Of a DNA stretch of 64,000 nucleotides, positions 33,570 to 64,000 are shown piece by piece. This DNA comes from an uncultured bacterium. Lineage in GTDB: Bacteria > Hydrogenedentota > Hydrogenedentia > Hydrogenedentales > CAILVY01. Made by a program: the position numbers and the translations under genes. How positions within the stretch are numbered: the stretch's first letter is position 1; each line of letters starts with the position of its first letter. The notes under the pieces are model-generated. The model did no database searches, was not told the DNA's origin, and worked only from the letters and a program-made list of their open reading frames with translations. Where the stretch lies: contig CALEDJ010000015.1 in NCBI GenBank assembly GCA_937951485.1, forward strand, positions 60,880 to 124,879. The letters run 5' to 3'.

Positions 33570-34294
33570 GGAGTCTCCGTCACGCGTTTGCCATAGTGAC
33601 TTTTCTCCGGAGTATTGATTTCCCGTGGTCGCGCGGTGGCTGTGGCGTCTGCTTCCCTGGCCGGGGTCATGACCAACTCAGGAGGGGCAATAATGCCCGC
33701 CGACATCAGCATCTTCACGGCATCTTCCACAGAAAGGTCCGCATGATACACGAATCTGGGATTCAGCACCTGCAGATAACCGCTGGTGGGATTGGGCGTT
33801 GTCGGCACAAAAACCTTGTAACATTCCCCTTCGCCGTCAATATGTACCATCCCCGTGACAAAGGCGATGGATTTGACGCCGGGCCGGGGAAAATCCACAT
33901 AAACCGCTGCCTGGTAGTTGCTGCCCGCATCCTGCGCCGACACCGTCTGCACCAGTCGTTTTGACGCGCCATATACGGTCTTCACCAACGGAATGCGGTG
34001 CAGCAGCGCGTCCATTACGGCGATGAGACGTCGGCCCACAACGGCCGTCGCCACCACGCCGATGATATAGAGCATGGAAAAGAACAGGAAAACTGACAGC
34101 GCAATCACTGCGTATTCCGGCATGGGAAGCCAGTATTTCTTGATAAACGGCACCAGATGCGCGGCGGTGAAGTTGTAGCAGATGATCAGGACGTAGATCG
34201 TTACGCCGAGGGGCACCAACACCAGCAATCCCCGGATGGAATACATCCGGAAATTGTTCTTGATGCGCAGCAGCAGCGAGGGCTTCTGTTTCAT
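33566..34294 (-). CDS. DUF502 membrane protein (copy 1)
   Basis: About 242 residues from ATG 34294; an in-frame TTG at 34309 is less likely. It has the same layout as the downstream copy: a basic N-terminus, two transmembrane helices (about 15-38 and 58-80), then RRLIAVMDALLHRIPLVKTVYGASKRLVQ, VDFPRPGVKSIAFVTG and FVPTTPNPTSGYL. The C-terminal tail is hydrophilic and differs from copy 2. The pair arose by tandem duplication. The cellular role is unknown. Confidence 0.85.
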   Translation of the reverse strand: MKQKPSLLLRIKNNFRMYSIRGLLVLVPLGVTIYVLIICYNFTAAHLVPFIKKYWLPMPEYAVIALSVFLFFSMLYIIGVVATAVVGRRLIAVMDALLHRIPLVKTVYGASKRLVQTVSAQDAGSNYQAAVYVDFPRPGVKSIAFVTGMVHIDGEGECYKVFVPTTPNPTSGYLQVLNPRFVYHADLSVEDAVKMLMSAGIIAPPELVMTPAREADATATARPREINTPEKSHYGKRVTETP

Positions 34295-34516
34295 TTTTTC
34301 TTCACGCAACAGCCCAACAATGAGGCCGGTCCCTTGGTAATCGGTCCCGATCCGGCGCGTCCCTTATTATGGCACTCCCGGCGCGCTGGTCTCCGGGAAA
34401 GGCCCGACGCCGGTCGGCGGCAATGACAGGCTCAAGTATATCATGCGCTCGTTTGAGCGCGCGATATCTATCCCCGTTTCAGCGATTCAGTTCCCTGGGC
34501 GAGGGCTTTCCCGGTC

Positions 34517-34545
34517 TTGACCCCCCTGGGGAATGCTGTTAGGCT
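34517..34545 (+). promoter_or_regulatory. Possible promoter of the sodium/solute symporter gene
   Basis: TTGACC (34517-34522) and TAGGCT (34540-34545) are separated by 17 bases, about 48 bases before the ATG at 34593. The -10 is weak. Confidence 0.35.
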
Positions 34546-34592
34546 TAGACGTTCTGTTTTATTCCGAGACAATCAAATGGAGTGGTTGCGCC

Positions 34593-36212
34593 ATGGCCGG
34601 TTTTCAGCCCGTTGACTGGATGATTCTGGTGTTGTACATGGTCGCCATGGCGGCGATAGGGCCGCTTTGCGCGCGCAGCGGCAGAACCACGGAAGGCTAT
34701 TTCCTCGGCAGCCGGTCGTTTTCGGGATGGCTGGTGGGCCTGTCCATGTTCGCAACGTCCATCAGTTCCGTCACGTTCATGGCCTATCCTGCCGACGCCT
34801 ACAAGACGGCGTACATTCGCTTTGTGCCCTGTCTGATGCTGCCGTTAGGCGTATTGTTATGTTCCTATATTTTTTTGCCGTTTTATCGTAAGGCGCGGAT
34901 TATCTCCGCGTTTGAATATCTTGAGAGTCGTTTCGGTCCGGGCATCCGACTGTATGCGGCGTCCATGTTCGTGTTGGGGCAACTCATCCGCCTCAGCCTC
35001 GTGCTTTATCTGGTATCCTTGCTGGTGTATGAGATGAGCCGCCTGGACCCCATGCTCTGCATCCTGATTGGCGGCGTGGTCACGGCCTTCTACACCATTA
35101 CGGGCGGCATCAAGGCGGTGCTCTGGACCGATTTCATCCAGTCCTTCCTGCTCTGGGGGGGCGGCCTGGTATGCCTGTTGGTTATCGTCTTCAAATTGGA
35201 GGGCGGCTTCGGCGAAATCTTCTCCGTGGCCATGCGCGACGGCAAATTCATGCTCGGCGACTTGAACAGGGCCACGGGGGAATTGGAGCGCGCCCCATGG
35301 GGGTTCGCGTTGTCCGAAAAGACGGTGATCATGATGCTGCTGGTGGGGTTGACGGGCTGGATGACGGAATACAGCAGCAATCAGAACGTGATTCAGCGGT
35401 TCTGCGCCTCCGCATCGCCGACCGAAGCGCGCAAGGCCATCTGGATTTGCTGCGTGTGCAGTGTGCCCACGTGGGGATTCTTCATGTTCCTGGGCACCAG
35501 CCTCTACGTGTTCTTCCAGGCGTATCCGACGCCGGAGGCTCAAGCGATGCTTGACGGGACGATGAAGGCCGACCAGATATTGCCGTACTTCGTGGTGCAC
35601 TATCTGCCGCCGGGCATGTCGGGACTGGTGATTGCGGGCGTGCTCGCCGCCGCGATGTCTTCGCTTTCTTCCAGCATCAACGCCGTGTCCGCCATCGGCA
35701 TCGTGGACATCTACCGCCGCCATGTGATGAAGGGCAAATCGGACACGCACTATGTTGTCGCCGCGAAATTGATCGCTCTGGGCGCGTCCCTGGTCATGAT
35801 CGGCGGCGCCATGCTCCTGATGATAGCGGACAGCAAGACCATGCAGGACACCGGCGCCAAGATCGGCGCGGTCACCGCCGGCGGCCTGCTCGGTCTGTAT
35901 TCACTGGGCTTTTTGACCAAACGCGGCGACGCGCGGGCCGTCGGTGTCGGCATTGTGTGCACGATCCTTTTCTCCCTGTGGATTGCATCCCTGGAAATGG
36001 GTTGGATTACGGAAGCGCGCGTGCTGATGCTGGGTCTCCCGCAGGGATTTGCGTCGTGGTTCGTCAAGCCGATGGACACCTACTACGCCGGCATCTTCGG
36101 CAACATCATCATGTTCGTGGTGGGCTATCTGCTTGGCAGCCTCGTCTTTGTCCGCAAGGGCGACCTGACCAACCTGACCGTGTGGACCCGCGACGGCACA
36201 CCGGAAGTGTAG
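34593..36212 (+). CDS. Sodium:solute symporter (SSS family), copy 1
   Basis: About 539 residues from ATG 34593, ten bases after GGAG; the longer frame from 34533 is rejected. Thirteen hydrophobic helices are visible. The N-terminus has the SSS pattern: GRTTEGYFLGSRSFSGWLVGLSMFATSISSVTFMAYPADAY. TM5-6 read GGIKAVLWTDFIQSFLLWGG, with the Asp-Phe-Ile-Gln motif typical of the family, and MSSLSSSINAVSAI corresponds to the sodium-site helix. It should import a sugar, sialic acid or other organic solute with sodium. It is the last plus-strand gene before the convergent OppC gene. A second SSS protein is encoded at 51313-53082. Confidence 0.9.
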   Translation: MAGFQPVDWMILVLYMVAMAAIGPLCARSGRTTEGYFLGSRSFSGWLVGLSMFATSISSVTFMAYPADAYKTAYIRFVPCLMLPLGVLLCSYIFLPFYRKARIISAFEYLESRFGPGIRLYAASMFVLGQLIRLSLVLYLVSLLVYEMSRLDPMLCILIGGVVTAFYTITGGIKAVLWTDFIQSFLLWGGGLVCLLVIVFKLEGGFGEIFSVAMRDGKFMLGDLNRATGELERAPWGFALSEKTVIMMLLVGLTGWMTEYSSNQNVIQRFCASASPTEARKAIWICCVCSVPTWGFFMFLGTSLYVFFQAYPTPEAQAMLDGTMKADQILPYFVVHYLPPGMSGLVIAGVLAAAMSSLSSSINAVSAIGIVDIYRRHVMKGKSDTHYVVAAKLIALGASLVMIGGAMLLMIADSKTMQDTGAKIGAVTAGGLLGLYSLGFLTKRGDARAVGVGIVCTILFSLWIASLEMGWITEARVLMLGLPQGFASWFVKPMDTYYAGIFGNIIMFVVGYLLGSLVFVRKGDLTNLTVWTRDGTPEV

Positions 36213-36262
36213 TTGCAGGGTGAGTGCAGCGAAGCGAAACCCATTGCTTGCCTTCGGCGCGA

Positions 36263-37147
36263 TCAGTCTTTGGCGGCGCGGGGATCGAGCGCATCGCGGA
36301 GACCGTCGCCCAGAAAGTTCAGCGAAAACAATGTGAGCGACAGCGCAATCCCCGGAAAAATCAGCAGCCAGGGATATTCCTCCATCGTCTCCACCCCTTC
36401 CTTGATCAACAGCCCCCAGGAACTCATCGGCGGCTGCACACCCAGCCCCAGGAAACTGAGGAACGCCTCCAGCAGCATGACCTGGGGAATGGTGAGCGTG
36501 GCATAGACGATGACCGGACCGAGCGTGTTCGGCGCGAGATGCACGAACAGGATGCGCAGCCGCTTCAGCCCCAGCACCACGGCGGCCTGGATAAACTCCT
36601 GTTCCCGCAACGACAACACCTGCCCGCGCACGATGCGCGCCATGGTCAGCCAGTGCACCGCGCCAATGGCGAGAAACAGGAACACGAAATTGCGCCCGAA
36701 GAAGACCATGAGAATGATGACGAAGATGGTGAAGGGCAGCGCGTAGAGGATGTCCACAATGCGCATCATCAGCGCGTCCGCTCGACCGCCCGCGAATCCC
36801 GCCACCGCGCCGTAGGTGACGCCGATGATCAACGACACGGCCGTGGCGATCACGCCGACCAAGAGCGAAATGCGGCCGCCATGCAGGAGGCGGGTGAGCA
36901 GATCACGGCCCAGCGGATCGGTGCCGAGCCAGTGTTGACGGGAGGGCGGCGCGGCCCCCAGGGCGGTGTCCTGCTCATCATAGGTATAGGGGCTGAACCA
37001 CGGCCCGGCGATGGCCAGCGCGACAACCACGCCCAGCAGAATCAGCCCGGCCACCGCGGCGCGGTTTTTGACCAGCCGCCGCCATGCGTCCTGCCAGAGC
37101 GATTGGCCCCGTTCCAGTTCCTGCAAGGGGATGTCGGTGGTGCTCAT
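36263..37147 (-). CDS. OppC/DppC-type ABC transporter permease
   Basis: 294 residues from ATG 37147. The open frame extends further upstream inside the oppB-like gene in another register, and that extension is rejected. The N-terminal OppC region (WRRLVKNRAAVAGLILL) precedes a binding-protein-dependent permease core with LGTDPLGRDLLTRLLHGGR. The EAA loop QEFIQAAVVLGLKRLRILFVHLAPN contacts the ATPase, and five or six helices are visible. With the upstream permease it forms the channel for a peptide or related solute. The start overlaps the upstream stop (ATGA). No ATPase or binding-protein genes follow; the next gene is the convergent symporter. Confidence 0.9.
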   Translation of the reverse strand: MSTTDIPLQELERGQSLWQDAWRRLVKNRAAVAGLILLGVVVALAIAGPWFSPYTYDEQDTALGAAPPSRQHWLGTDPLGRDLLTRLLHGGRISLLVGVIATAVSLIIGVTYGAVAGFAGGRADALMMRIVDILYALPFTIFVIILMVFFGRNFVFLFLAIGAVHWLTMARIVRGQVLSLREQEFIQAAVVLGLKRLRILFVHLAPNTLGPVIVYATLTIPQVMLLEAFLSFLGLGVQPPMSSWGLLIKEGVETMEEYPWLLIFPGIALSLTLFSLNFLGDGLRDALDPRAAKD

Positions 37148-38061
37148 GTGTGACGAATCCTGGGGTCCAGCCAGGCGCATGCGATGTCCGCCGCAAGGTT
37201 CAACGCCATGACCAGCACCGCATAGACCAGCACCGTCCCGCTGATCATCGTATAATCGCGGTTGAAGGCCGATTCCACAAACTCTCGACCCAATCCCGGC
37301 ACCTGGAAAATCGTTTCCACCACGAAAGACCCCGTGAGCAGCCCTGCCGTGGCCGGGCCGAGAAAAGCGATGGTCGGCTGAATGCCGCCGGGGAGCGCGT
37401 GGCGGATGACCACCCGCGCCTCGCTCATGCCCTTGGCGCGCGCCGTGCGGATGAAATCCCGCGACAGCGTTTCCAGCATGCCCGCGCGGGTCAGCCGCGC
37501 AATGTAGGCCGCGTACATCGCACCGAGCGTCAGCGACGGCAGCACCTTGTCGGCGGCGCTGCGCCAGCCCGCCACCGGCAGCCAGCCCAGCCACAGCGAA
37601 AACACCAGCACCAGCAGCGGCCCCAGCACGAAGTTGGGAATGCAGATGCCGGCCATGCCCAGCGCCATGGTCCCGTGATCTATTGCACTGTTCGGGCGCA
37701 TCGCCGCCAGCAGTCCCGCCCCCATGCCCAGCGCCAGCGCCACCACCAGCGCATACGCGCCCAGTTCCAGCGAAACGGGCAGGCGCAGCAGAATCCATTC
37801 ATTGACACTGCGGCTCGATTTGCGGAAGGACGGTCCCAGGTCACCGTGAAATACCCCGCGCATGTATTCCCAGTATTGCACCAGCAGCGGCGCGTCGAGC
37901 CGGTAATGCGCCTCGAGGCGCTGTTGCGCCTCCGGCGAAACCCGCTTGTCCGCATCGAACGGGCCGCCCGGCGCCAACCGCACCATGAAAAACGTCAGCG
38001 TCATGATGATGAACAGCACCGGGAGGAATTCAAGCAGTCTTCTCGCGATATAGCGTGTCAT
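37144..38061 (-). CDS. OppB/DppB-type ABC transporter permease
   Basis: 305 residues. The N-terminus MTRYIARRLLEFLPVLFIIM is the classic OppB start. It is followed by MVRLAPGGPFD, then LDAPLLVQYWEYMRGVFHGDLGPS, and the EAA loop RDFIRTARAKGMSEARVVIRHALP. Six hydrophobic helices are visible. It pairs with the downstream OppC-like subunit, coupled by a four-base overlap. It is the first gene of the unit, read away from the sulfatase gene at 38167 across a short 105-base divergent region. The substrate-binding protein and ATPases must be encoded elsewhere. Confidence 0.9.
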   Translation of the reverse strand: MTRYIARRLLEFLPVLFIIMTLTFFMVRLAPGGPFDADKRVSPEAQQRLEAHYRLDAPLLVQYWEYMRGVFHGDLGPSFRKSSRSVNEWILLRLPVSLELGAYALVVALALGMGAGLLAAMRPNSAIDHGTMALGMAGICIPNFVLGPLLVLVFSLWLGWLPVAGWRSAADKVLPSLTLGAMYAAYIARLTRAGMLETLSRDFIRTARAKGMSEARVVIRHALPGGIQPTIAFLGPATAGLLTGSFVVETIFQVPGLGREFVESAFNRDYTMISGTVLVYAVLVMALNLAADIACAWLDPRIRHT

Positions 38062-38166
38062 GATCAGCCCGCAAAGTTTATTCTACGCGATACTGCGGCA
38101 TGTCTTTTCAGTTGATGGATTATAATCGCCGGGGCGCCGTTGAAGAAACCCGTGGAGGGACATGGA

Positions 38167-39585
38167 ATGCGACACCGGCGGATATCACGGAGAAATTGGA
38201 TGCAGGGCATGGCCGGGATGATGGCCGGGATGATGGCCGGGACGGCGCTGAGCCGCGCCGGCGGGGAAGAAAATCCTGGGCAAAGACCGAACCTGCTGAT
38301 TGTCCTTACGGATGACCAGCATTTCCAGGCGATGGGCTGCATGGGCAACCCGATCATCCAGACGCCGCAGATGGATGCGCTCGCGGCGCAAGGGGCGCTG
38401 TTCGCAAACGCCTTTGTGACCACGCCGATCTGCTGCACAAGCCGCGCCAGCATCCTCACGGGCATGTACGCCTGGAGCAACGGCGTCCACGATTTTCAGA
38501 CGCCCCTTCCCCCGGACCTCCTCGAAATCAGTTATCCCGTGATGCTGCGGCGGCACGGGTATTACACCGGCTTTGTTGGCAAGTACGGCGTGGGGACAAC
38601 GCCGCCGGCAGATGCCTTTGATTTCTTTTTCGGACTTCCCGGAAATGGACGCTATATCCAGGAGATCAACGGCGAGACGCAGCACATGACCGGCCTGCTT
38701 GCCGACCAGGCCGTTGCATTCCTGGAATCTTGTCCCGATAACGCGCCGTTCTGTCTGTCGCTGAGCACGCGTGCGCCCCACGCCGAGGACTACGACCCGC
38801 GCCCCTTCCCGCCGGACCCCGCCTTGGAACATCTCTACTGCGATGTCGAAATCCCCGCGCCTGAACTGGTGAAACCGGAGTATTACGAGGCGCTGCCGCC
38901 GTTTCTCAAGGATTCCGAGGGCCGCAAGCGCTGGGAGAACAATTTCAACACGCCGGAACGCTATCAGGAGTCGGTGCGGGATTATTACCGGATGATCACC
39001 GGCGTGGACCATGCCATCGGCCGCCTCCGGGAAGTCCTGCGCCGGCGCGGCATGGACCACAACACCGTCATTCTTTTCACTTCCGACAACGGTTTCCTTC
39101 TCGGCGAGCGCGGCCTGTCCGACAAATGGTACGCCTACGAGTCCTCCATCCGTGTGCCGTTCATTCTCTATGATCCCCGGCTGCCTGAAGCGCAACGGGG
39201 GCGGCGCGTCGAGGCCATGGCGCTGAACATTGACATCGCGCCGACCCTCCTCGACCTCGCGGGGATCGAAGCGCCGTCCGCAATGCAGGGGCGGAGCCTT
39301 TTGCCCTGGCTGCGCGGTGAAACGCCCCCCTGGCGGGAACACTGGTTCTTCGAGCACCGCTTCGACAGCCCCCACCACAAGATTCCGATGAGCGAGGGCG
39401 TGCGCAGCCCCCGCTGGAAGTATTTCCGGTGGATCAACGTCGAAGGAACCCCGGAAGAACTCTACGACCTGGAACAGGACCCGCTCGAAATCCGCAATCT
39501 CGCGGGAAATCCCGATTCCGCGGCCACCCTCGCCGAAATGCGCCTCTTGACGGAAGCATACCGGGAAACGCTGCCGAAGCGGTGA
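38167..39585 (+). CDS. Exported sulfatase with CxTSR active-site motif
   Basis: About 472 residues from ATG 38167, eight bases after GGAGG; a TTG at 38140 is rejected. The N-terminus has a Tat-like RRNW motif followed by a Met/Ala/Gly-rich hydrophobic stretch. The core begins PNLLIVLTDDQHFQAMGC, with the paired Asp metal ligands. The formylglycine motif reads ICCTSRASILTG; the first Cys of C-C-T-S-R would be oxidised by a formylglycine-generating enzyme, but the canonical Pro is Thr. VILFTSDNGFLLGERGLSDKWYAYE completes the metal site. It should remove sulfate from extracellular polysaccharides in the periplasm. A TATAAT hexamer lies at 38121-38126. It ends six bases before a tandem-repeat array. 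Confidence 0.9.
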   Translation: MRHRRISRRNWMQGMAGMMAGMMAGTALSRAGGEENPGQRPNLLIVLTDDQHFQAMGCMGNPIIQTPQMDALAAQGALFANAFVTTPICCTSRASILTGMYAWSNGVHDFQTPLPPDLLEISYPVMLRRHGYYTGFVGKYGVGTTPPADAFDFFFGLPGNGRYIQEINGETQHMTGLLADQAVAFLESCPDNAPFCLSLSTRAPHAEDYDPRPFPPDPALEHLYCDVEIPAPELVKPEYYEALPPFLKDSEGRKRWENNFNTPERYQESVRDYYRMITGVDHAIGRLREVLRRRGMDHNTVILFTSDNGFLLGERGLSDKWYAYESSIRVPFILYDPRLPEAQRGRRVEAMALNIDIAPTLLDLAGIEAPSAMQGRSLLPWLRGETPPWREHWFFEHRFDSPHHKIPMSEGVRSPRWKYFRWINVEGTPEELYDLEQDPLEIRNLAGNPDSAATLAEMRLLTEAYRETLPKR

Positions 39586-39590
39586 AAATG

Positions 39591-39752
39591 TCGGACAAGT
39601 CGGACAAGTCGGACAGGTCGGACGGGTCGGACGGGTCGGACGGGTCGGACGGGTCGGACGGGTCGGACGGGTCGGACGAGTCGGACGGGTCGGACGGGTC
39701 GGACGGGTCGGACGGGTCGGACGGGTCGGACGGGTCGGACGAGTCGGACGGG
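39591..39752 (+). repeat. 9-bp tandem repeat array, 18 units (TCGGACnnn)
   Basis: Eighteen contiguous 9-base units share the core TCGGAC plus a variable triplet. The triplets in order are AAG, AAG, AGG, six GGG, GAG, six GGG, GAG, GGG. The two GAG units are exactly seven units (63 bp) apart, which points to segmental duplication. The array starts six bases after the sulfatase stop and lies upstream of the four-helix-bundle gene. An inverted counterpart lies at 40658-40801. The period is a multiple of three, so shadow frames read as SDG or PTR repeats; I regard it as non-coding. Confidence 0.95.
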
Positions 39753-39794
39753 GGAGAGTGGTCGGAAAGGGGCATTTTGAGCCTTTGGAATTGT

Positions 39795-39827
39795 TGTGGT
39801 CTGTTGCCATAGATGGCGAGAACCACG
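39795..39827 (+). other. Hairpin between tandem array and four-helix-bundle gene
   Basis: A nested inverted repeat: the outer arms GTGGT (39796-39800) and ACCAC (39822-39826) enclose the inner arms GCCAT (39806-39810) and ATGGC (39813-39817). It sits 55 bases before the ATG at 39881 and could be an operator or a structured leader. Confidence 0.45.
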
Positions 39828-39880
39828 TATATTGGCATTATGAGAATCACGACACCTGCCGCGGATGGGGAGCATAGCCC

Positions 39881-40633
39881 ATGAATGATCCAAAGGGGCC
39901 ATTACTGCCGCACGGAGGATATCGGTCTCTAAAGAGTTATAAAGTGGCGGAAGCGATCTATGACGCGACCGTGGTGTTCTGCCGCCGATTCTTCCAGCAA
40001 GATCGCCGCATGACGGAGCAAATGGTTCAAGCCGCACGAAGCGGTGTGCGCAATATCAGCGAAGGAAGCGGCGCGTCAGCCACTTCCCGCAAGACGGAAA
40101 TGAAACTGACCAACGTGGCCCGCGCCAGCCTGGCGGATGAATTGCTGCGGGATTATGAAAGTTTCCTCGTGCAGAGAGGGCTGCGTATCTGGCCGAAAGA
40201 ATCGCGTGAGGCCCGTTTGATGCGCGACCGTTTGGCCAAAGATCAAGCCGATGACTTGCCACCTATTTCTGATGGAACCACCCGATTGACTGGTCTTTCC
40301 GGTTTGTCCGATTTTGTGTCCGAAGCAGACCCTGAAATCGTGGCCAATGCGATGATATGCGCGATTCACCAAGCCGTTTATCTGTTGAGCCGGCAACTGA
40401 AGAGTCAAGGTGAAGCGTTCCTGTCCGCGGGCGGGTTTTCAGAGAATCTCTATCATTCCCGGCAGCAAGCCCGCGAAGAAAATCACAGTGCGCCCGAATG
40501 CCCCGTCTGTGGCAAGCCCATGCGGCAACGCACCGCAAGCAAAGGACCACACAAAGGGGAATCATTCTGGGGTTGCAGCGCTTATCCTGCCTGTACCGGC
40601 ACGCGCTCCATGGACATAGAAAACCGCCGTTGA
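39881..40633 (+). CDS. Four-helix-bundle protein with suffix domain and topoisomerase-type zinc finger
   Basis: 250 residues. Residues 15-120 match the four-helix-bundle (S23/IVS-like) fold: LKSYKVAEAIYDATVVFCRRFF, then MVQAARSGVRNISEGSGASATSRKTEMKLTNVARASLADELL, which is the family's most conserved stretch. Residues 128-148 form a Thr/Ser/Gly/Leu-rich linker. Residues 149-190 form a helical 'suffix' (EIVANAMICAIHQAVYLLSRQL). The C-terminus is a C4 zinc finger like those of topoisomerase I, with C207, C210, C232 and C238 in CPVCGKPM…GCSAYPAC, suggesting binding of single-stranded or structured nucleic acid. Related four-helix proteins include Avd of diversity-generating retroelements, but no reverse transcriptase is here. 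Inverted TCGGAC arrays lie on both sides, and GTCCGA hexamers occur at 40306 and 40318 inside the linker codons. Confidence 0.8.
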   Translation: MNDPKGPLLPHGGYRSLKSYKVAEAIYDATVVFCRRFFQQDRRMTEQMVQAARSGVRNISEGSGASATSRKTEMKLTNVARASLADELLRDYESFLVQRGLRIWPKESREARLMRDRLAKDQADDLPPISDGTTRLTGLSGLSDFVSEADPEIVANAMICAIHQAVYLLSRQLKSQGEAFLSAGGFSENLYHSRQQAREENHSAPECPVCGKPMRQRTASKGPHKGESFWGCSAYPACTGTRSMDIENRR

Positions 40634-40657
40634 TCCCTGCCATTCCCCTCCCCGTTT

Positions 40658-40801
40658 GTCCGCCCTGTCCGCCCCGTCCGCCCCGTCCGCCCTGTCCCAC
40701 TCGTCCGACCTGTCCGACTGATCCGACTGGTCCGACCTGTCCGACTCGTCCGACTGGTCCGACTGGTCCGACTGGTCCGACTGGTCCGACTCGTCCGACC
40801 C
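40658..40801 (-). repeat. 9-bp tandem repeat array, 16 units, inverted relative to 39591-39752
   Basis: Sixteen 9-base units are written GTCCGnnnn on the plus strand; on the minus strand the later units share the TCGGAC core with the left array. The units ending in CTC are the 5th, 10th and 15th, a 45-bp higher-order period. The first four units are more diverged (GTCCGCCCT/CCC). The array begins 24 bases after the four-helix-bundle stop and ends 22 bases before a promoter. Confidence 0.95.
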
Positions 40802-40823
40802 AGCACGTTCCTTCCCCCTCAAA

Positions 40824-40852
40824 TTGACATCTGCGTCCGCTCTGGTGATACT
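40824..40852 (+). promoter_or_regulatory. Sigma70 promoter of the FAD oxidoreductase gene
   Basis: A perfect TTGACA (40824-40829), 17-base spacer and GATACT (40847-40852), 22 bases before the ATG at 40875. AGGAGG ribosome site bases lie between. The short leader fits a strong housekeeping promoter. Confidence 0.65.
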
Positions 40853-40874
40853 CCCCCACAGGAGGAGGAAAACC

Positions 40875-42851
40875 ATGCCCGAAAAAAGGGTCAATCGCCG
40901 AAATTTCTTCCGGGACGCCGCCAACGCGGGTGCGTTGGCCGGCTACACGTTGCTGGTGCGGGTGGACGGCGCGCGCGGGGGGGAATCTTCCGGCGCGCCG
41001 CGTCCCGATTTTCAGCAGATCGCGCCCCCGGCGGACCATGCCGCGCGGCTGGCCGCGGAACCGAACATGACGGTGGCGGACCTTGCGTGCGATGTCATGG
41101 TCGCGGGCGGAGGCATGGCGGGGGTGTGCGCGGCGCTGGCGGCGGCGCGCCATGGGGCGAGGGTGGTGCTGGCGCAGGACCGTTCCCGTCTCGGCGGCAA
41201 CGCAAGCAGCGAGGTCCGCATGCACATTGTCGGCGCAGACTGCCATAACGGGCGGCCCGGCTGGCGGGAAGGCGGCATCCTGGAGGAGTTGCGCCTGGAG
41301 AATGCGGTCCGCAATCCGCACGGCGCGTGGGAACTCTGGGACCTGATGCTCTACGACAAGGTGGTTTCGGAACCCAATATCACGCTGCTGCTCGATGCCA
41401 CGGTCTATGCCGCGAAGGTCGGGGACGGTTGCATCCGGGAAGTGCTGGCGCGCTGCGACCGCACTGAACACATTTACCGCATCCGCGCCGCGCAGTACGC
41501 GGACTGCACCGGCGACAGCCGGCTCGGACTGGAAGCGGGGGCGCTGTTCCGCACCGGCCACGAATCGCGGGCGGCATTCGATGAACCCCTCGCGCCGGAG
41601 ACGGAAGGACCGGAAACGCTGGGCAGCAGCATTCTTTTCACCTCGAAGGACTACGGTCATCCGGTACCCTTTACGCCGCCGCCATGGGCGCGCAAAATTA
41701 CCAAAGAGCAGTTGCGGCACCGCGGCATCCGTTCGTGGGAATACGGCTACTGGTGGATCGAGTGGGGCGGGATGATTGACGCGATCCGGGACGATGCGCG
41801 CATCCGCTTTGAATTGCTGTCCATTGTAATGGGCGTATGGGATTACATCAAGAACTCCGGCGCGTTTCCGGAAAGCGCCACCTGGGGGATGGATTGGGTC
41901 GGCATGATTCCGGGGCGGCGCTCAAGCCGCCGCCTGATTGGCCCGTACCTCCTCACGCAGCAGGATTTGATGGGACTGAACGGCGAATTCGAGGACGCCG
42001 TGGCCATCGGCGGCTGGTCTTTTGACGATCACCCGCCCGGCGGTTTCGACGCGACGGAGAAGCCCCCGTGCCGACAGATCCATATTGAAGAACCCTATAA
42101 CATCCCGTTGCGCGCGCTGTTCTCCGCGAACGTGAAAAACCTGTTCATGGCCGGGCGCAACATCAGCGCATCGCACGTCGCGTTCACGTCGTTGCGGGTG
42201 ATGGGTACCTGTGCCGTCGAAGGGCAGGCCATCGGCACTGCGGCGGCGCTCTGCGCGCGGGAGGAAAAAACCCCGGAGGCATTGGTCGCGGACAGCGGGG
42301 CCGTCGCCGCCCTGCGGCAAGCCCTCCTGCGCGACGACCAGACCATCAAGGGCGCAAAGAATGAGGACCCGAACGACCTGGCGCGCCGCGCGCGCGCAAG
42401 CGCTTCGGGCGAAGTGAAAGGGAGCCGGGCGGCGCATGTGCTCGACGGTTTTGTGCGCGATATGCCGGGGGAGTGGGAGCATCGCTGGGGCGGCCCCATG
42501 ACGCCGGAGGGGGCATGGATTGCGTTGGAATGGGATGCGCCGCAGACCATTTCACACGTACAGATTTGTTTTGATTCCGGATTCAGCCGGGAGTTGACGC
42601 TTTCGGAAAACCAGTGGGTGCGCACGCGCATCACCACCGGTCCGCAACCCGAAACGGTACGCGACTACGCGCTCCAGTATTGGGATGACAACCACGGCGA
42701 TTGGAAAACCATTGTTGAAATCGCCGGCAATTATCAACGGCTGCGACGGCACCATTTTCCGGCTGTCGAGACGAAGAAACTGCGACTGCAGATCACCGCA
42801 ACCAACGGCGATCCCGAAGCGCGGGTCTATGAGATTCGGTGCTATGCGTAG
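40875..42851 (+). CDS. Tat-exported FAD-dependent oxidoreductase with C-terminal discoidin-like domain
   Basis: About 658 residues from ATG 40875 behind a GGAGGAGG ribosome site. The N-terminus VNRRNFFRDAANAGAL is a twin-arginine signal. The FAD-binding Rossmann motif CDVMVAGGGMAGVCAALAAARHG lies at about residues 72-95, followed by LGGNASSEVRMHIVG and GTCAVEGQAIGTAAALC, typical of the FAD_oxidored family (pfam12831) common in Planctomycetota-like bacteria. The last ~150 residues, with VQICFDSGFSRE and LRLQITATNGDPEARVYEIR, look like an F5/8 type C (discoidin) sugar-binding domain. It probably oxidises a carbohydrate-related substrate in the periplasm. The following gene encodes a glycoside-hydrolase-like DUF4091 protein. 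Confidence 0.8.
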   Translation: MPEKRVNRRNFFRDAANAGALAGYTLLVRVDGARGGESSGAPRPDFQQIAPPADHAARLAAEPNMTVADLACDVMVAGGGMAGVCAALAAARHGARVVLAQDRSRLGGNASSEVRMHIVGADCHNGRPGWREGGILEELRLENAVRNPHGAWELWDLMLYDKVVSEPNITLLLDATVYAAKVGDGCIREVLARCDRTEHIYRIRAAQYADCTGDSRLGLEAGALFRTGHESRAAFDEPLAPETEGPETLGSSILFTSKDYGHPVPFTPPPWARKITKEQLRHRGIRSWEYGYWWIEWGGMIDAIRDDARIRFELLSIVMGVWDYIKNSGAFPESATWGMDWVGMIPGRRSSRRLIGPYLLTQQDLMGLNGEFEDAVAIGGWSFDDHPPGGFDATEKPPCRQIHIEEPYNIPLRALFSANVKNLFMAGRNISASHVAFTSLRVMGTCAVEGQAIGTAAALCAREEKTPEALVADSGAVAALRQALLRDDQTIKGAKNEDPNDLARRARASASGEVKGSRAAHVLDGFVRDMPGEWEHRWGGPMTPEGAWIALEWDAPQTISHVQICFDSGFSRELTLSENQWVRTRITTGPQPETVRDYALQYWDDNHGDWKTIVEIAGNYQRLRRHHFPAVETKKLRLQITATNGDPEARVYEIRCYA

Positions 42852-42914
42852 ATTTTGGGGACACTGGGTCGGCCAGGTGGCTCGCTCAGGAGACCGGCCA
42901 CAACAAAAACAGTT

Positions 42915-43021
42915 CCGTCTTTGCGAGCGGTGCGGTGCAGCGCGCCGCTGAGCGAAACAATCCAAGGTGAATTGGACATCCATATTGCCGCGCTCCGCTT
43001 CGCTTCGCTCGCAATGACGGG
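42915..43021. repeat. Short inverted-repeat element (MITE-like)
   Basis: About 107 bases. The left end CCGTCTTTGCGAGCG and right end CGCTCGCAATGACGG are inverted copies with one mismatch. The interior carries AGCGAAACAATCC and CGCTTCGCTTCGCTCGC, matching the widely dispersed 'CATTGCGAGCGAAGCGAAGCAATC' type of intergenic repeat. It lies directly before the DUF4091 gene. Confidence 0.6.
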
Positions 43022-43079
43022 TACGACGGCAAAAATGGTGAAAATACGCGCTTTCTTTGCAGGCAAGGAGAAAGGTGAG

Positions 43080-46000
43080 ATGAAACGGAAGTTCTGGCGC
43101 AGGGTGATGCTTGTTTCATTCACGCTTGCGGCGTTGCTAGCCGCGCGGACCGAGGCGCAGGCGCGCCTGAAATGGTCGTATGAAACGACAGGTAAAATCT
43201 ACGCATCGCCGATTCTTGCTGATTTGGACGGCGACGGTGCGGTCGAGATCATCGTGGCGGCGTCGCGGGACCAGCGGCTCTTGTGCCTGAACGGGCAGGG
43301 CGAACTGCTGTGGTCGTTCCAACTGGACGACGGCAACAGGGACGGGTTTCAGGCCACGCCGTCCGTGGCGGATTACGACGGCGACGGCAGGCAGGAGGTG
43401 TTCTGGCTGACGCGGGGCGGCACGGCGGGATGCGTGGATTATCAGGGCCGTCTGGTCTGGCGCGTGACGATGGGCGATGAGATGGATTACACCGGCCCTG
43501 TGTTGGCGGACCTTAACAACGATGGCCGCCTGGAGATTGTCTTCGGTTCGGAAAGCGGCACGCTCTATTGCCTCAACGACACGGGGCGCGTGTTGTGGCG
43601 CAAGCAGCACGTGGGCGACATGCGCGGCATCCCTGCGGTGGCGCGCATCGGCGACGCGCCCGCCATGCGGGTATATGCCGTGTTTGGCGGCGGCGTCGAG
43701 GCATGCTTCGACGCCGAAGGCAACACCCTCTGGGCGCACGAGGAAGGATTGCCCGCACGGCAACGGCGGTCCGGCGTGTCCATCGGCGATCTGAACGGCG
43801 ACGGGCGCCTGGAAACGGTCTCCGCCACCGAAGATTTTCAGGTGGTCGCGCGCGACGCGGAAACCGGCGAGGAGCGCTGGCGTTTCAAGGGCAAAGGGCG
43901 CATAGACCAGACGTGCAGTTTCGCATTGGCGGACTTCGACGGTTCGGGCCGTCTCGATGTCGTCACTGGCGATTCCTCCGGCCATGTCTATCGCCTGCGC
44001 GATGGCGAGGCCGTCTGGATGACCGATACCGGCGGCGGCGTGGTGCAGGGGCCTGCCATTGGCGATGTGAACGGCGACGGCCGCCTCGATGTACTGGTTT
44101 CCTCACGGTCGAACCGGATGCTCTGCCTCGACGGCGACACCGGCGCGATACAATGGGATTTTCCTACGCCCGCCGCCCCGCTGACAACGCCCGCACTCGG
44201 AGATGTGGACGGCGACGGCACGGTGGACATCATCCTCACGAGCAAGGACCGTTTTGTCTATTGCCTGAACGCAGGCGGCAAATATGATCCGGCGCGGTTG
44301 CCCTGGCCGATGATGAACCGCGACCCGCAGTTGTCGGGCAACATGATGGGCGCGCGGTTCGAGATCGCGCCCGCGCCGCAGCCGCCCGAAACGCCTGTTG
44401 CGCCGGTATCGCTGGAGGCGTTCGGCCCGTTGCGCATGGGAAGAAACCCGCTTCAGTTTTCCTTCCACAACGACAGCCATCGCCGCCGCCGTCTGGAAGC
44501 GGTGACGAGCGTGCAGCGCCCCGACGGCAGCGTGATCACGCACCGGGCGGCCGACGAATGCACCCCCTATGAAACGAGAACACAGTCATTTGAACTGGAA
44601 GTCCTGGAAAGCGGTCCATATCGCCTCGACCTGTGCCTGATTGACGCAGGAACCGGCGCAATTCTCGCCGCGACGGACACCATCACGGAAGTGAAAGCCT
44701 TTGCCGTGGAACGCGCGGAGGCGCAAACCTGGTTCGAGGAGGGTACGCAGTTGGCGGACGCCATTGCGAATGAGGCGTTGCATGACCGCGCGCGTCGGGC
44801 GCTGGCCTCCGCGTGGGACACTGCCGACACGGCGCTGCGCGCCGCCGAGGCCGCCGCGCACCCGGACCGCCGCACGCTGATAACTGTGCGCGCGGCGCAG
44901 GCCGGCCTGTGCCGCACCCTGGCGAAACTCCGCGCCGTACATGCGACGCCTGGACCGGCGGATGCGTTCGCAGCCGTCCCGGAAACCTCCATGCGCAAGG
45001 TGTTCATGGACGAGCCCTGCCTGCTTGCGCCGCGCGAAGCGCGGCCGCTCCGCGTCGAACTCGCCCGCAATGAATACGAAAGCGCCCAACTGATCATCGT
45101 GCCGCTATGGACATCGCTGCGCGGGTTGCGTGTGCGGCCGAATGCCTTGCGGCAGGAAAACGGCGCTGGGGTACTGCCAGCGGACGCGATTCAGGTGCAT
45201 CAGGTGGGGTATGTGGAGATCGGCCCGCCGGAATACAACTGGCACGTCGAAAAGGTGGGCCTTTATCCCGACCCGCTTCTGCCGTCCATGCCGGAATACA
45301 TTCCCGCCGGACAGGACGCGCAGCCCTTCTACATCACCGTGAAAACCACTGCGGATACGCCGCCCGGGGCATATCGCGGCGTTGTGACGGTAGAGGCCGA
45401 CGGCGCGAATGCGCTGGAAATCCCGTTGGCGGTGAAGGTCTGGGATTTCGCCCTGCCCGACAAAACCACGCTGAAAACGTCGTTCTGGATGAAAGAAGCG
45501 CACATCAAGGCGTTCTATGGATATGAAGGCCGCACGCCGTTCGAGGTTCGCAAGCGGTACTACGACATGCATCTGGATCATCGGGTCGGACCGCTGATGG
45601 CACTGCCGCTCGGCGGCGGCGATATGCTCGAAGATTTCGAGTACGTTATCAGTCGGGGACAAAACAATTTCTTCATTCACACTCCCGACCTTTTCGGCCC
45701 GGAGGGCCGCGATGAATACCGCGAGAAGGCGCTCGCCACCCGCGCGTTGATCCGGGAAAAAGGCTGGGGCGATCTCGCGCTTTTCTACACCCACGACGAG
45801 GTGGCCGTGATGGCGCGGCATCTGATCCCCCAAGTGGTCGAAGTGAACAACTGGGTGAAGAGTTTTTTGCCCGATTGGCCGCGCCTGCAGACCAGTGCGC
45901 CGGAACAGGCGCTCGTCGGCGCAGTGGATGTCTGGTGCCCCACTATTGACCATTTCGATCCGGAAATGCTCGCCACACGCATGGCCCAGGGCGACCGCCT

Positions 46001-46496
46001 CTGGTTCTACACGGTCTGGGGACGGCCCGGCATCATGATCGAGTTTCCCGCCACCGACCACCGCATCATGTTCTGGCAGTGCTGGAAATATGGCGCGGAA
46101 GGGTTCCTGTATTGGGGCACGACGTTCTGGGAATACAACATCACCGGGGAGGGGCGCTGGCCGGATCGGCCCTGGATACCCTATAACAGTCAGCCTGGTC
46201 ACAACGGCTGCGGTTATCTCATTTATCCCGGTCCGGACGGACAGCCCCTGTCTTCGATCCGGCTCGCCATGGTGCGCGACGGCATCGAGGACTATGAGAT
46301 GCTCCACCTGCTGAAATCACTGCTGGAGCAGAAACGCGCCCGTGCGCCGGAAGCGTTGTGCAACCACGCCGACAAGGCGCTGGCCATCCCCCCGGCGGTC
46401 GTGGCCGATCACAAGAACTTCACTGGGGATCCGGAACTAATCCTGGATGCGCGACGGCAAGCCGCCGCGCTGATCGAAGAACTCGCAGGAGTGTAG
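43080..46496 (+). CDS. Secreted FG-GAP/PQQ-type propeller fused to DUF4091 glycosidase-like domain
   Basis: About 1138 residues from ATG 43080, after AAGGAGAAAGGTGAG; the longer frame to 42855 runs through a repeat element and is rejected. The signal peptide ends near ARTEAQA. Residues 30-430 contain repeated calcium-type loops of the FG-GAP/VCBS kind (LADLDGDGAVEIIVA, DYDGDGRQEV, DLNNDGRLEIVFG, DVNGDGRLDVLVS), forming a beta-propeller. After a linker with Ig-like character, residues from about 640 onward form a DUF4091-type barrel: the N-terminal domain LARNEYESAQLI, FYTHDEVAVM with acidic residues, and the late GIEDYEMLHLL signature. DUF4091 proteins are related to glycoside hydrolases. A role in extracellular glycan breakdown or recognition is likely. 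Confidence 0.75.
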   Translation: MKRKFWRRVMLVSFTLAALLAARTEAQARLKWSYETTGKIYASPILADLDGDGAVEIIVAASRDQRLLCLNGQGELLWSFQLDDGNRDGFQATPSVADYDGDGRQEVFWLTRGGTAGCVDYQGRLVWRVTMGDEMDYTGPVLADLNNDGRLEIVFGSESGTLYCLNDTGRVLWRKQHVGDMRGIPAVARIGDAPAMRVYAVFGGGVEACFDAEGNTLWAHEEGLPARQRRSGVSIGDLNGDGRLETVSATEDFQVVARDAETGEERWRFKGKGRIDQTCSFALADFDGSGRLDVVTGDSSGHVYRLRDGEAVWMTDTGGGVVQGPAIGDVNGDGRLDVLVSSRSNRMLCLDGDTGAIQWDFPTPAAPLTTPALGDVDGDGTVDIILTSKDRFVYCLNAGGKYDPARLPWPMMNRDPQLSGNMMGARFEIAPAPQPPETPVAPVSLEAFGPLRMGRNPLQFSFHNDSHRRRRLEAVTSVQRPDGSVITHRAADECTPYETRTQSFELEVLESGPYRLDLCLIDAGTGAILAATDTITEVKAFAVERAEAQTWFEEGTQLADAIANEALHDRARRALASAWDTADTALRAAEAAAHPDRRTLITVRAAQAGLCRTLAKLRAVHATPGPADAFAAVPETSMRKVFMDEPCLLAPREARPLRVELARNEYESAQLIIVPLWTSLRGLRVRPNALRQENGAGVLPADAIQVHQVGYVEIGPPEYNWHVEKVGLYPDPLLPSMPEYIPAGQDAQPFYITVKTTADTPPGAYRGVVTVEADGANALEIPLAVKVWDFALPDKTTLKTSFWMKEAHIKAFYGYEGRTPFEVRKRYYDMHLDHRVGPLMALPLGGGDMLEDFEYVISRGQNNFFIHTPDLFGPEGRDEYREKALATRALIREKGWGDLALFYTHDEVAVMARHLIPQVVEVNNWVKSFLPDWPRLQTSAPEQALVGAVDVWCPTIDHFDPEMLATRMAQGDRLWFYTVWGRPGIMIEFPATDHRIMFWQCWKYGAEGFLYWGTTFWEYNITGEGRWPDRPWIPYNSQPGHNGCGYLIYPGPDGQPLSSIRLAMVRDGIEDYEMLHLLKSLLEQKRARAPEALCNHADKALAIPPAVVADHKNFTGDPELILDARRQAAALIEELAGV

Positions 46497-46567
46497 GGAA
46501 ACACCGGAAAAGACCAGAGAGAACAGGACCAATAGGACGCGCAGGACCCGCAGGTCGCATGTTCCAT

Positions 46568-47089
46568 TCAGCGCCCTTCTTTCATCGCCTTCAATCGCGC
46601 AATGGTGTCCGGATCCAGCCGGTCTTCCAGACGATCAGGGGCGGGGTCCTTCCTGCTTTTCTGCATCGCGCCGGTAATGTCCTGTTTGGTCTCGCGCACA
46701 GTGGCGAGAAAGTTGTCGGCCTCCATCACCAGCGCGCCCATGCCCCGGCAGACCTCGCGCAGGCCGCGGTCGTTGCTGACCACCACGATATCAAGACGAT
46801 TCCCGGCCTTGTACACCATGCGTTCGATAACCGCATCGGCGGAGAGGTTGGCCGGGGAATAGACGATCTGCAATCCGGCGACGCCGGGCGGCGGCGGTGC
46901 ATGTTGTGGTTGGTGGCGGCCGCGTCCGTCAAAAACGATTACCGCGCGCTTTCCGCTGCCCACGCAGAACAACGCCACTTTGTCAATCAGCGCATCCCGC
47001 GCGGCCTCAAAATCTTCCTGCGCAAGCGGGCGCAATAAAGACGACTTGTGCAGCACATTGTAGCCGTCAATGTAGTAAATTTCGGGCAT
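46568..47089 (-). CDS. YacP-like NYN-domain nuclease
   Basis: 173 residues. The PIN-like NYN fold shows its acidic residues in order: YYIDGYNVLH, RAVIVFDGRG, an Asp/Glu in SADAVIERMVYKAG, and VVVSNDRGLREVCRGMGA. This matches the YacP/Rae1 group (DUF901); the Bacillus member cleaves mRNA at the ribosome. Metal-dependent RNA cleavage in the cytoplasm is expected. The C-terminal ~30 residues are basic and could help ribosome or RNA binding. It lies alone, tail-to-tail with the DUF4091 gene and upstream of the aminotransferase end. Confidence 0.8.
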   Translation of the reverse strand: MPEIYYIDGYNVLHKSSLLRPLAQEDFEAARDALIDKVALFCVGSGKRAVIVFDGRGRHQPQHAPPPPGVAGLQIVYSPANLSADAVIERMVYKAGNRLDIVVVSNDRGLREVCRGMGALVMEADNFLATVRETKQDITGAMQKSRKDPAPDRLEDRLDPDTIARLKAMKEGR

Positions 47090-62938: not shown

Positions 62939-64000
62939 ATGCCGCGCATACCAGTCACTTTGTGTCTTTCATTCTTTTGCATTGTGCTTGCACTGTCGGC
63001 GCATGCGACACCGCGGATTCTCATCATCGGAGACAGTTGGGCCGCGGGCATCTGGCTGACGCGCGCTTTGGACCAGGTTTTGCTGGAATACGGCATTACA
63101 GATGTGGAGACAGTGGGCGATGCGACGGCCGTGGGGGGCAGCAGGGCATCCCAATGGGCCACTCCTGAACGCCTGGCCATCATCTCCCAGGAACTGGCAA
63201 CCCATCCCACCATTGACAGCGTGCACCTGATAATCGGCGGCAACGACGTTCTGTCGCGCATCAGGGATACAAATGTTTTCTCTGGATGGGCCCAATATCT
63301 GCGCGAGGGATGGTGGAACACGATTCGCAATGACGTGCAGACCATCGTCAATCATTGCCTCGCGCACCCGCAAGTCAACCATGTCGTCATCGCGAGTTAC
63401 GACTATATCAACCGCACCACCGCGCAAATTGTATTCTCGCTACTGGGGCAGACCTATGACTTTGGCGGCATGAGCCAGCGGCAGGTCAATGAGGCTTTCC
63501 TGGAGGTCGCGGTGAAAAAATTGTCTGTCGCCCTGAATACGCCGGGATGCGAATATGTACAGAACTGGGGGCTATTGCAGCATCATTTCAACACTCCCGC
63601 AGGCGCCCCGCGACCGGGCACTTACCCAACCTATATTCCCTGGCCGGGCGGCAATCCCGATTATCCCATGCCCGACAGTGCATTTGATACGATTGTCCTT
63701 GGCCCATTTTCATTTGCTGGCGATGGCATTCATCCCAGTCTTGAAGCACATAAGGTCATGCTGCGAAATGCCGTCGAACAGTTCTATATCCATTGGTATC
63801 CTGTAAGTGGCGAGGGCGAGGGTGAAGGGGAGGGCGAAGGCGAGGGTGAAGGGGAGGGCGAAGGCGAGGGTGAGGGCGAAGGCGAAGGCGAGGGCGAAGG
63901 CGAGGGCGAAGGCGAAGGCGAGGGCGAAGGCGACGGCGAGGGTGAAGGCGAGGGTGAGGGCGAGGGCGAAGGCGAGGGCGAAGGCGAAGGCGAAGGCGAA
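62939..64000 (+). CDS. Secreted SGNH/GDSL hydrolase with Gly-Glu linker, C-terminus outside window
   Basis: The frame opens at ATG 62939, eight bases after AAGGA, and is still open at the window end (354 codons). A signal peptide (about 1-24) precedes an SGNH hydrolase: ILIIGDSWAAG with the nucleophile Ser, the oxyanion Gly/Asn block LIIGGNDVLS, and a late DGIHPSLEAH holding the Asp and His of the triad. It should deacylate or deacetylate an extracellular ester, for example on a polysaccharide. From residue 291 the protein becomes a Gly-Glu dipeptide repeat that continues beyond the window, a flexible, acidic linker typical of secreted proteins in Hydrogenedentota-like genomes (from memory). 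A further C-terminal domain is expected. Confidence 0.85.
   Translation, partial: MPRIPVTLCLSFFCIVLALSAHATPRILIIGDSWAAGIWLTRALDQVLLEYGITDVETVGDATAVGGSRASQWATPERLAIISQELATHPTIDSVHLIIGGNDVLSRIRDTNVFSGWAQYLREGWWNTIRNDVQTIVNHCLAHPQVNHVVIASYDYINRTTAQIVFSLLGQTYDFGGMSQRQVNEAFLEVAVKKLSVALNTPGCEYVQNWGLLQHHFNTPAGAPRPGTYPTYIPWPGGNPDYPMPDSAFDTIVLGPFSFAGDGIHPSLEAHKVMLRNAVEQFYIHWYPVSGEGEGEGEGEGEGEGEGEGEGEGEGEGEGEGEGEGEGEGEGDGEGEGEGEGEGEGEGEGEGEGE
63809..64000 (+). repeat. Gly-Glu hexanucleotide repeat in the SGNH hydrolase gene
   Basis: Thirty-two consecutive GGN-GAR units (GGCGAG, GGCGAA, GGTGAA, GGGGAG and so on), with one GAC that gives a single Asp, run to the window edge. Synonymous codons are mixed, so the protein repeat is partly under selection and not a fresh slippage array. 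Confidence 0.95.

Follow-up and report, generated by a model that had tools for sequence, protein, structure and literature searches.

Introduction

Repetitive extragenic palindromes and their associated tyrosine transposases (REP/RAYT) are protein-repeat pairs in which the gene, coding for a Y1 HUH transposase, is flanked by short and often inverted copies of a 20–40-bp palindrome, which is also dispersed between genes and whose type tracks the protein (PMC2817692). The short tandemly repeated repetitive (STRR) sequences of cyanobacteria are 7-bp tandem repeats whose function is reported as unknown (PMC2670836). Genes of the S23 family are found in intervening sequences (IVS) of 23S rRNA; PMC4990558 describes tandem heptamer repeats preceding the S23 open reading frame (ORF) of Coxiella, and cites the S23 protein Xcc0516 as a pentamer. 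Here, we analysed a 64,000-nucleotide stretch of DNA (the window; contig CALEDJ010000015.1, positions 60,880 to 124,879) from an uncultured bacterium of the Hydrogenedentota, whose genome is a 4.55-Mb draft in 77 contigs. One gene of this window, coding for an S23-type four-helix-bundle protein, is enclosed by two arrays of short tandem repeats, and we propose that gene and arrays probably form a protein-repeat element, in which the repeats would serve as the cognate nucleic-acid sites of the protein.

Structures of S23 proteins have been solved since 2006 while their function is not known, and the function of the cyanobacterial tandem repeats is likewise not known; a link between them would connect both. 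In the open-access library searched, which does not extend to subscription journals and preprint servers, no description came up that links S23 proteins with tandem repeats dispersed in genomes; the closest statements were those on the Coxiella heptamers and on the cyanobacterial STRR sequences.

Results

The upstream array (39590..39752, forward strand) consists of 18 consecutive units of GTCGGAC followed by two variable bases (TCGGACnnG), with GTCGGAC invariant in all 18 and variation confined to two positions of the 9-mer. The downstream array (40657..40800, reverse strand) has about 16 units of the reverse complement of this word and is less regular, its four gene-proximal units being GCGGAC. 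The single ORF between them (39881..40633, forward strand) codes for 250 amino acids. This layout had been described in an earlier reading of the sequence (the original prediction), and we could confirm it. The long stem which the opposite arrays had been proposed to form is seen in a predicted RNA fold, in which both arrays can pair around the gene.

By using profile searches, we found that the window protein matches the S23 family TIGR02436 of NCBIfam (29.5 bits, cut-off 24), TIGR04258 (64.8 bits, curated cut-off 40) and the Top1-type C4 zinc ribbon PF01396 (34.1 bits, cut-off 32); its score against PF05635 of Pfam (26.0 bits) is below the cut-off of 33.8. Thus, the three parts expected by the original prediction, a four-helix bundle, a helical suffix and a zinc finger, were all recovered, but the suffix does not form a domain of its own. 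The AlphaFold model (pLDDT 91.4, pTM 0.78) places the bundle helices at residues 18–37, 42–65, 70–98 and 151–183, so that the TIGR04258 part (residues 151–198; 40331..40474, forward strand) provides the fourth bundle helix. A linker of about residues 120–141 (40238..40303, forward strand) is predicted between helices 3 and 4, and the zinc ribbon, an optional domain of the family, is C-terminal (residues 206–244; 40496..40612, forward strand). The 3' end of the linker-coding DNA carries an imperfect GTCCGA-type stretch, at its end and just beyond. The best solved structural match to the model is Xcc0516 (2gsc; Z 15.7, root-mean-square deviation 2.0 over 114 residues), followed by the S23 protein BT_0352 (2rld; Z 13.7), while unrelated helical proteins score 10.8 and below. 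The modelled protein therefore has the S23 four-helix fold.

A survey of homologues for flanking tandem repeats, which had been proposed as a check, showed that arrays are enriched at these genes in related genomes and across phyla. TIGR04258 is present in 37 of 60 related genomes (Candidatus Hydrogenedentota), many with several copies, and flanking DNA was taken for about 80 of these suffix-type homologues. First, the share of DNA covered by tandem arrays is 10.0–10.9% in the 300 bp flanking the gene on either side and 6.5% inside it, compared to 0.5–1.3% at 0.3–8 kb. The in-frame arrays are located in the linker preceding the suffix and in the tails; the unit length is 9 bp, or in some cases 10, and most units have GGAC in common with varying preceding bases. 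Second, in a set of 80 named loci from a scan of species genomes (Verrucomicrobia, Lentisphaerae, Planctomycetota, Geobacter, Chlorobi, Nitrospirae and others), coverage is 6.5% upstream, 3.3% in the gene and 2.0% downstream against a background of 0.8–0.9%, the downstream rise being weaker. In this set, the closest relatives of the window protein mostly have GTC[GA]GAC words, and a zinc-ribbon sister clade has GATC-type words. Third, the orientation of the two arrays at suffix-type genes is inverted in 30 cases, the same in 35 and tied in 4. As to a link with phages, which was rejected, the suffix type was found on one viral contig, and hits in PHROG and PADLOC were only weak. The zinc ribbon is absent from most array-bearing clades and from all plain S23 genes (without suffix), and is thus not required for the gene-array association, and the zinc finger, as first suggested, was rejected as a general reader of the arrays.

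The repeat word follows the protein clade. On a protein tree for which the residues coded by repeats were masked, rows with the same word cluster in clades that span genera, and for 42 of the 51 labelled rows the nearest neighbour in another genome carries the same word (mean 6.5 and maximum 19 with shuffled labels). In contrast, none of 34 pairs of paralogues from one genome share a word. A mutational bias acting on the whole genome cannot account for this, since words differ between paralogues of the same genome. The proposal that arrays and protein form one unit is supported by these data and by the flanking enrichment.

Arrays of the same words are dispersed in the window genome. Three consecutive TCGGACnnn units occur 68 times, and never in the reversed control; chains of four GGACnnnnn units occur 114 times against 1 in the reversed control, so arrays of the window type are not due to chance. 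Other words in the genome include AAGGAC, AGGGAC and TGGGAC. Using a codon-usage gene caller trained on the window genome, we placed 16 of 18 solitary arrays between genes, the other two overlapping an ORF. Read by hand against co-directional neighbour genes, solitary arrays have no consistent strand (about 7 each way). Scattering of identical arrays over unrelated loci had been named as evidence against a protein-array unit; the arrays are indeed dispersed, but this is expected of a protein-repeat pair of the REP/RAYT type.

Array counts also depend on the genes present. CACGGACnnn arrays were found in 9/9 genomes with a CAC-type gene (mean 40 hits) and in 11/51 others (mean 1.2 over all others; p = 1e-5), and TCGGAC arrays in 13/18 genomes with a GTC- or ATC-type gene compared to 7/42 others (p = 6e-5), both p-values being limited by common ancestry and incomplete genomes. 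In the window genome, which has just two three-unit CACGGAC hits, a TIGR04258 match below the cut-off (34 bits; G000:C45:137461-137616) adjoins a CACGGAC array, as expected of a decayed CAC-type gene.

Two congeneric species that are about 94% identical (G011 and G059) differ in the unit numbers of orthologous arrays, such as about 11 units in one and 5 in the other, or 4 and 2. Between them, the GTC and GAC halves of the GTC word are retained while the middle base and the spacer change, and therefore the core is a near-palindrome. Alternating doublets in arrays are a sign of local duplication. One intergenic gap in these species holds three adjoining array kinds (heptamer, GTCnGAC and GATC-type). 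In such mosaic gaps (L294, L290; L323, L325), each kind of array resembles the word that goes with a separate class of four-helix proteins.

Plain S23 genes are flanked by arrays as well. Within 150 bp of these genes, 7-, 14- or 21-bp arrays cover 17–18% of the DNA, compared to 0.1–0.9% at 0.3–1.5 kb. In 30 of 35 cases, the array upstream of the gene is inverted relative to the one downstream, so that the opposite orientation which the original prediction had noted is a rule for plain S23 genes and not for suffix-type genes. The two arrays of a gene have 17.3 7-mers in common, whereas mismatched pairs have on average 5.3 and at most 12.7. The period goes with the protein type, being 9 or 10 bp with the suffix (59/79; 14 had none) and 7 bp without it (29/35). 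Heptamer arrays, for one word, were dispersed in two of three genomes tested. All 12 plasmid four-helix genes inspected (11 cyanobacterial, one from Gemmatirosa) adjoin 7- or 8-bp arrays, mostly inverted. No match to a plain S23 protein was found in phages. Three array-bearing four-helix genes are found within CRISPR operons, in Anabaena sp. 90 pANA02 (L332), Pseudanabaena galeata (L336) and Picosynechococcus PCC 7003 (L339), flanked by cas6 and cas4 or by cas10 and a cmr3-type gene, and are missing there in relatives.

Four array-gene-array blocks (419–503 bp) on cyanobacterial plasmids are present or absent between close relatives as discrete insertions. In Trichormus variabilis plasmid C, a 423-bp block has GTAAT on either side, which is a clear 5-bp target duplication; the block is missing from the plasmids of Aulosira NIES-50 and Tolypothrix PCC 7601, with flanks 96–98% identical, and Nostoc C052 pC052_E has a decayed remnant at the matching site. 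Nostoc C052 pC052_D and Nostoc ATCC 53789 pNsp_c are mutual empty sites (flanks 89–99% identical) for a 419-bp block without duplication and a 503-bp block with a 3-bp overlap. In Stanieria NIES-3757, a 461-bp block with a 4-bp overlap is absent from S. cyanosphaera PCC 7437 (flanks 96–98% identical), whose empty site already contains a short heptamer array. Three further pairs with the gene present or absent were not counted, their ends being replaced or diverged: Anabaena 90 and Dolichospermum at cas6-cas4, Nostoc edaphicum and Calothrix at a ribonucleotide reductase, and Picosynechococcus 7003 and 7002. The segment common to the Calothrix NIES-22 plasmids reaches well past the gene and is uninformative on mobility.

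The neighbours of the window gene are a sulfatase and an FAD oxidoreductase, as seen by Pfam scan. In genome G041, homologues of these two (48% and 69% identity, respectively) are adjacent, about 46 bp apart, with neither array nor four-helix gene between them, compared to a spacing of 1.29 kb in the window. At the level of gene order, the window block is thus an insertion as well. A large protein with an FG-GAP/PQQ-type propeller and a GH123-like catalytic domain is encoded nearby (42855-46496), and together with the sulfatase and the FAD oxidoreductase it likely marks a polysaccharide-use region. At the end of the window (63809-64000), a tandem GGCGAAGGCGAG repeat continues past the last position.

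Discussion

Taking these observations together, the window locus is probably a protein-repeat element made of an S23-type four-helix-bundle protein and its cognate short tandem repeats, and is best read, by analogy, as a REP/RAYT-like pair whose protein has the S23 fold. This protein probably forms a pentameric ring, like S23 proteins of solved structure, and would recognise its own repeat word in the arrays at both ends of the gene. We infer a ring geometry in which each subunit reads one repeat unit, with a 7-nt step for plain S23 proteins and a step of 9–10 nt where the protomer is longer. The array-gene-array block may insert as a small element that has no transposase and borrows the cutting and joining step. 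The complete element would then be the gene with its flanking arrays, and arrays standing alone between other genes would be gene-less derivatives or targets, protein and repeats depending on each other. Unit number could later change by slippage or recombination, with the core retained. While the association, the clade-specific words, the dispersal and the insertion of plain-type blocks are observed, we infer binding of the repeats, mobility driven by the protein and mobility of the suffix type.

Several observations weigh against this proposal. The window protein has no transposase domain or known catalytic site, none was found in the products of flanking genes that were tested, and the four inserted plasmid blocks contain no transposase gene. 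Target overlaps at plain S23 insertions differ (5, 4, 3 and 0 bp) and so do not point to one insertion chemistry, and microhomology is possible. For suffix-type genes, no clean DNA-level empty site was found among the cases compared. The G011/G059 pair differs by 991 bp that hold a zinc-ribbon suffix gene and are found in only one of the two species, with a 9-bp overlap (L074:7569-8559 compared to G059:C748). We rejected this case as a clean empty site, since the 991 bp seem to extend into the beginning of an adjacent gene; the overlap may be deletion microhomology and the case itself a deletion. In addition, 32 of the 80 suffix genes of the named cross-phylum set have no detected array, and a suffix gene of Prevotella nigrescens has no clear one. 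There are exceptions to the clade-word rule, mainly GT/AT swaps inside one protein clade. Finally, most genomes are draft metagenome-assembled genomes, in which unit counts are possibly collapsed.

A different explanation is that the protein binds the repeats in transcripts or DNA and controls its own gene and the genes next to solitary arrays, as a TRAP- or Csr-like ring on a repeated motif, the arrays being selected binding sites and not mobile DNA. An invariant core next to variable spacer bases in the upstream array, the retention of GTC.GAC between congeners, the fixed spacing, the position of arrays beside coding genes and the ability of the window arrays to fold together would all fit such control. 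However, array-gene-array blocks come and go as discrete insertions in cyanobacterial plasmids, solitary arrays keep no consistent strand relative to co-directional neighbours, and arrays of different words accumulate in one intergenic gap. We therefore consider a purely regulatory system unlikely, while the protein may also regulate genes flanked by arrays, which is compatible with a mobile element.

The S23 relative Avd is an S23-like four-helix bundle and assists the reverse transcriptase in diversity-generating retroelements. The locus could be an element spreading at the RNA level, like the 23S rRNA intervening sequences, in which the inverted arrays pair into a long stem that holds the S23 ORF in its loop and a reverse transcriptase acts in trans. 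Protein family and size class are those of the Coxiella IVS, whose heptamer repeats vary between 2 and 3 among strains (PMC4990558); the inverted arrays at plain S23 genes, the predicted stem in the window and the variable target overlaps also agree with it. However, the two arrays of suffix-type genes have the same orientation as often as not, no reverse transcriptase was found in the products of flanking genes that were tested, no Rfam match was found at window positions 34000-47000, and we noticed no trace of an RNA copy at the junctions. This makes a spread through RNA quite improbable. That the arrays are mere by-products, intergenic microsatellites grown by slippage and tolerated around these genes with no recognition, fits the differing unit numbers of congeners and the alternating doublets, but is very hard to reconcile with clade-specific words across genera, with 0/34 paralogue pairs having a common word, with genome-wide array counts that depend on the gene and with a period tied to protein type.

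Returning to the protein-repeat element, we judge the chances about even that S23-type four-helix proteins are in general the cognate proteins of a widespread, undescribed class of bacterial mobile short tandem repeats, which would include STRR-like heptamers, the 9/10-bp GGAC families and some heptamers of 23S rRNA IVS, with the bundle reading the word and the protomer setting the step length. If true, a mobile repeat system would spread without a recognisable transposase and explain some of the intergenic repeats that several phyla carry. It would also offer a family of natural protein-word pairs for studies of nucleic-acid recognition. Judged on open-access papers, gene plus repeats appear to be a previously unlinked kind of small mobile element.

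How does this element compare with known systems? Unlike insertion sequences and transposons, the window block, with its one ORF and no transposase domain, lacks a transposase of its own. It shares the S23-like bundle with Avd of diversity-generating retroelements; a search at the locus found no reverse transcriptase in the flanking gene products that were tested. Compared to the S23 pentamer proteins (2gsc, 2rld), the fold of four bundle helices is the same, and the window protein adds extra helices, a zinc ribbon and the linker between helices 3 and 4, which bears repeats in homologues. Like STRRs, heptamer arrays lie between genes, and the plain S23 genes on 11 cyanobacterial plasmids adjoin 7- or 8-bp arrays; the likeness is by description, and no protein is tied to STRRs in the papers found. 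The 23S rRNA IVS with an S23 ORF (PMC4990558) have in common with the plain type the protein family, a size of 0.4–0.5 kb, inverted ends and the lack of a transposase. The window block differs from them by lying between protein genes and not in a 23S rRNA gene, by a longer protein with suffix and zinc ribbon, by 9-bp arrays and by dispersed solitary arrays. As in REP/RAYT (PMC2817692), a gene is flanked by copies of a short repeat that is dispersed between genes and tracks the protein, and the inverted flanking copies are seen in the window but are a general rule only at plain S23 genes. The two differ in that the protein here is an S23 four-helix bundle, in which a Pfam scan detected no Y1 HUH transposase (Transposase_17, PF01797), and in that the repeats are tandem arrays of 7 or 9/10 bp instead of 20–40-bp palindromes.
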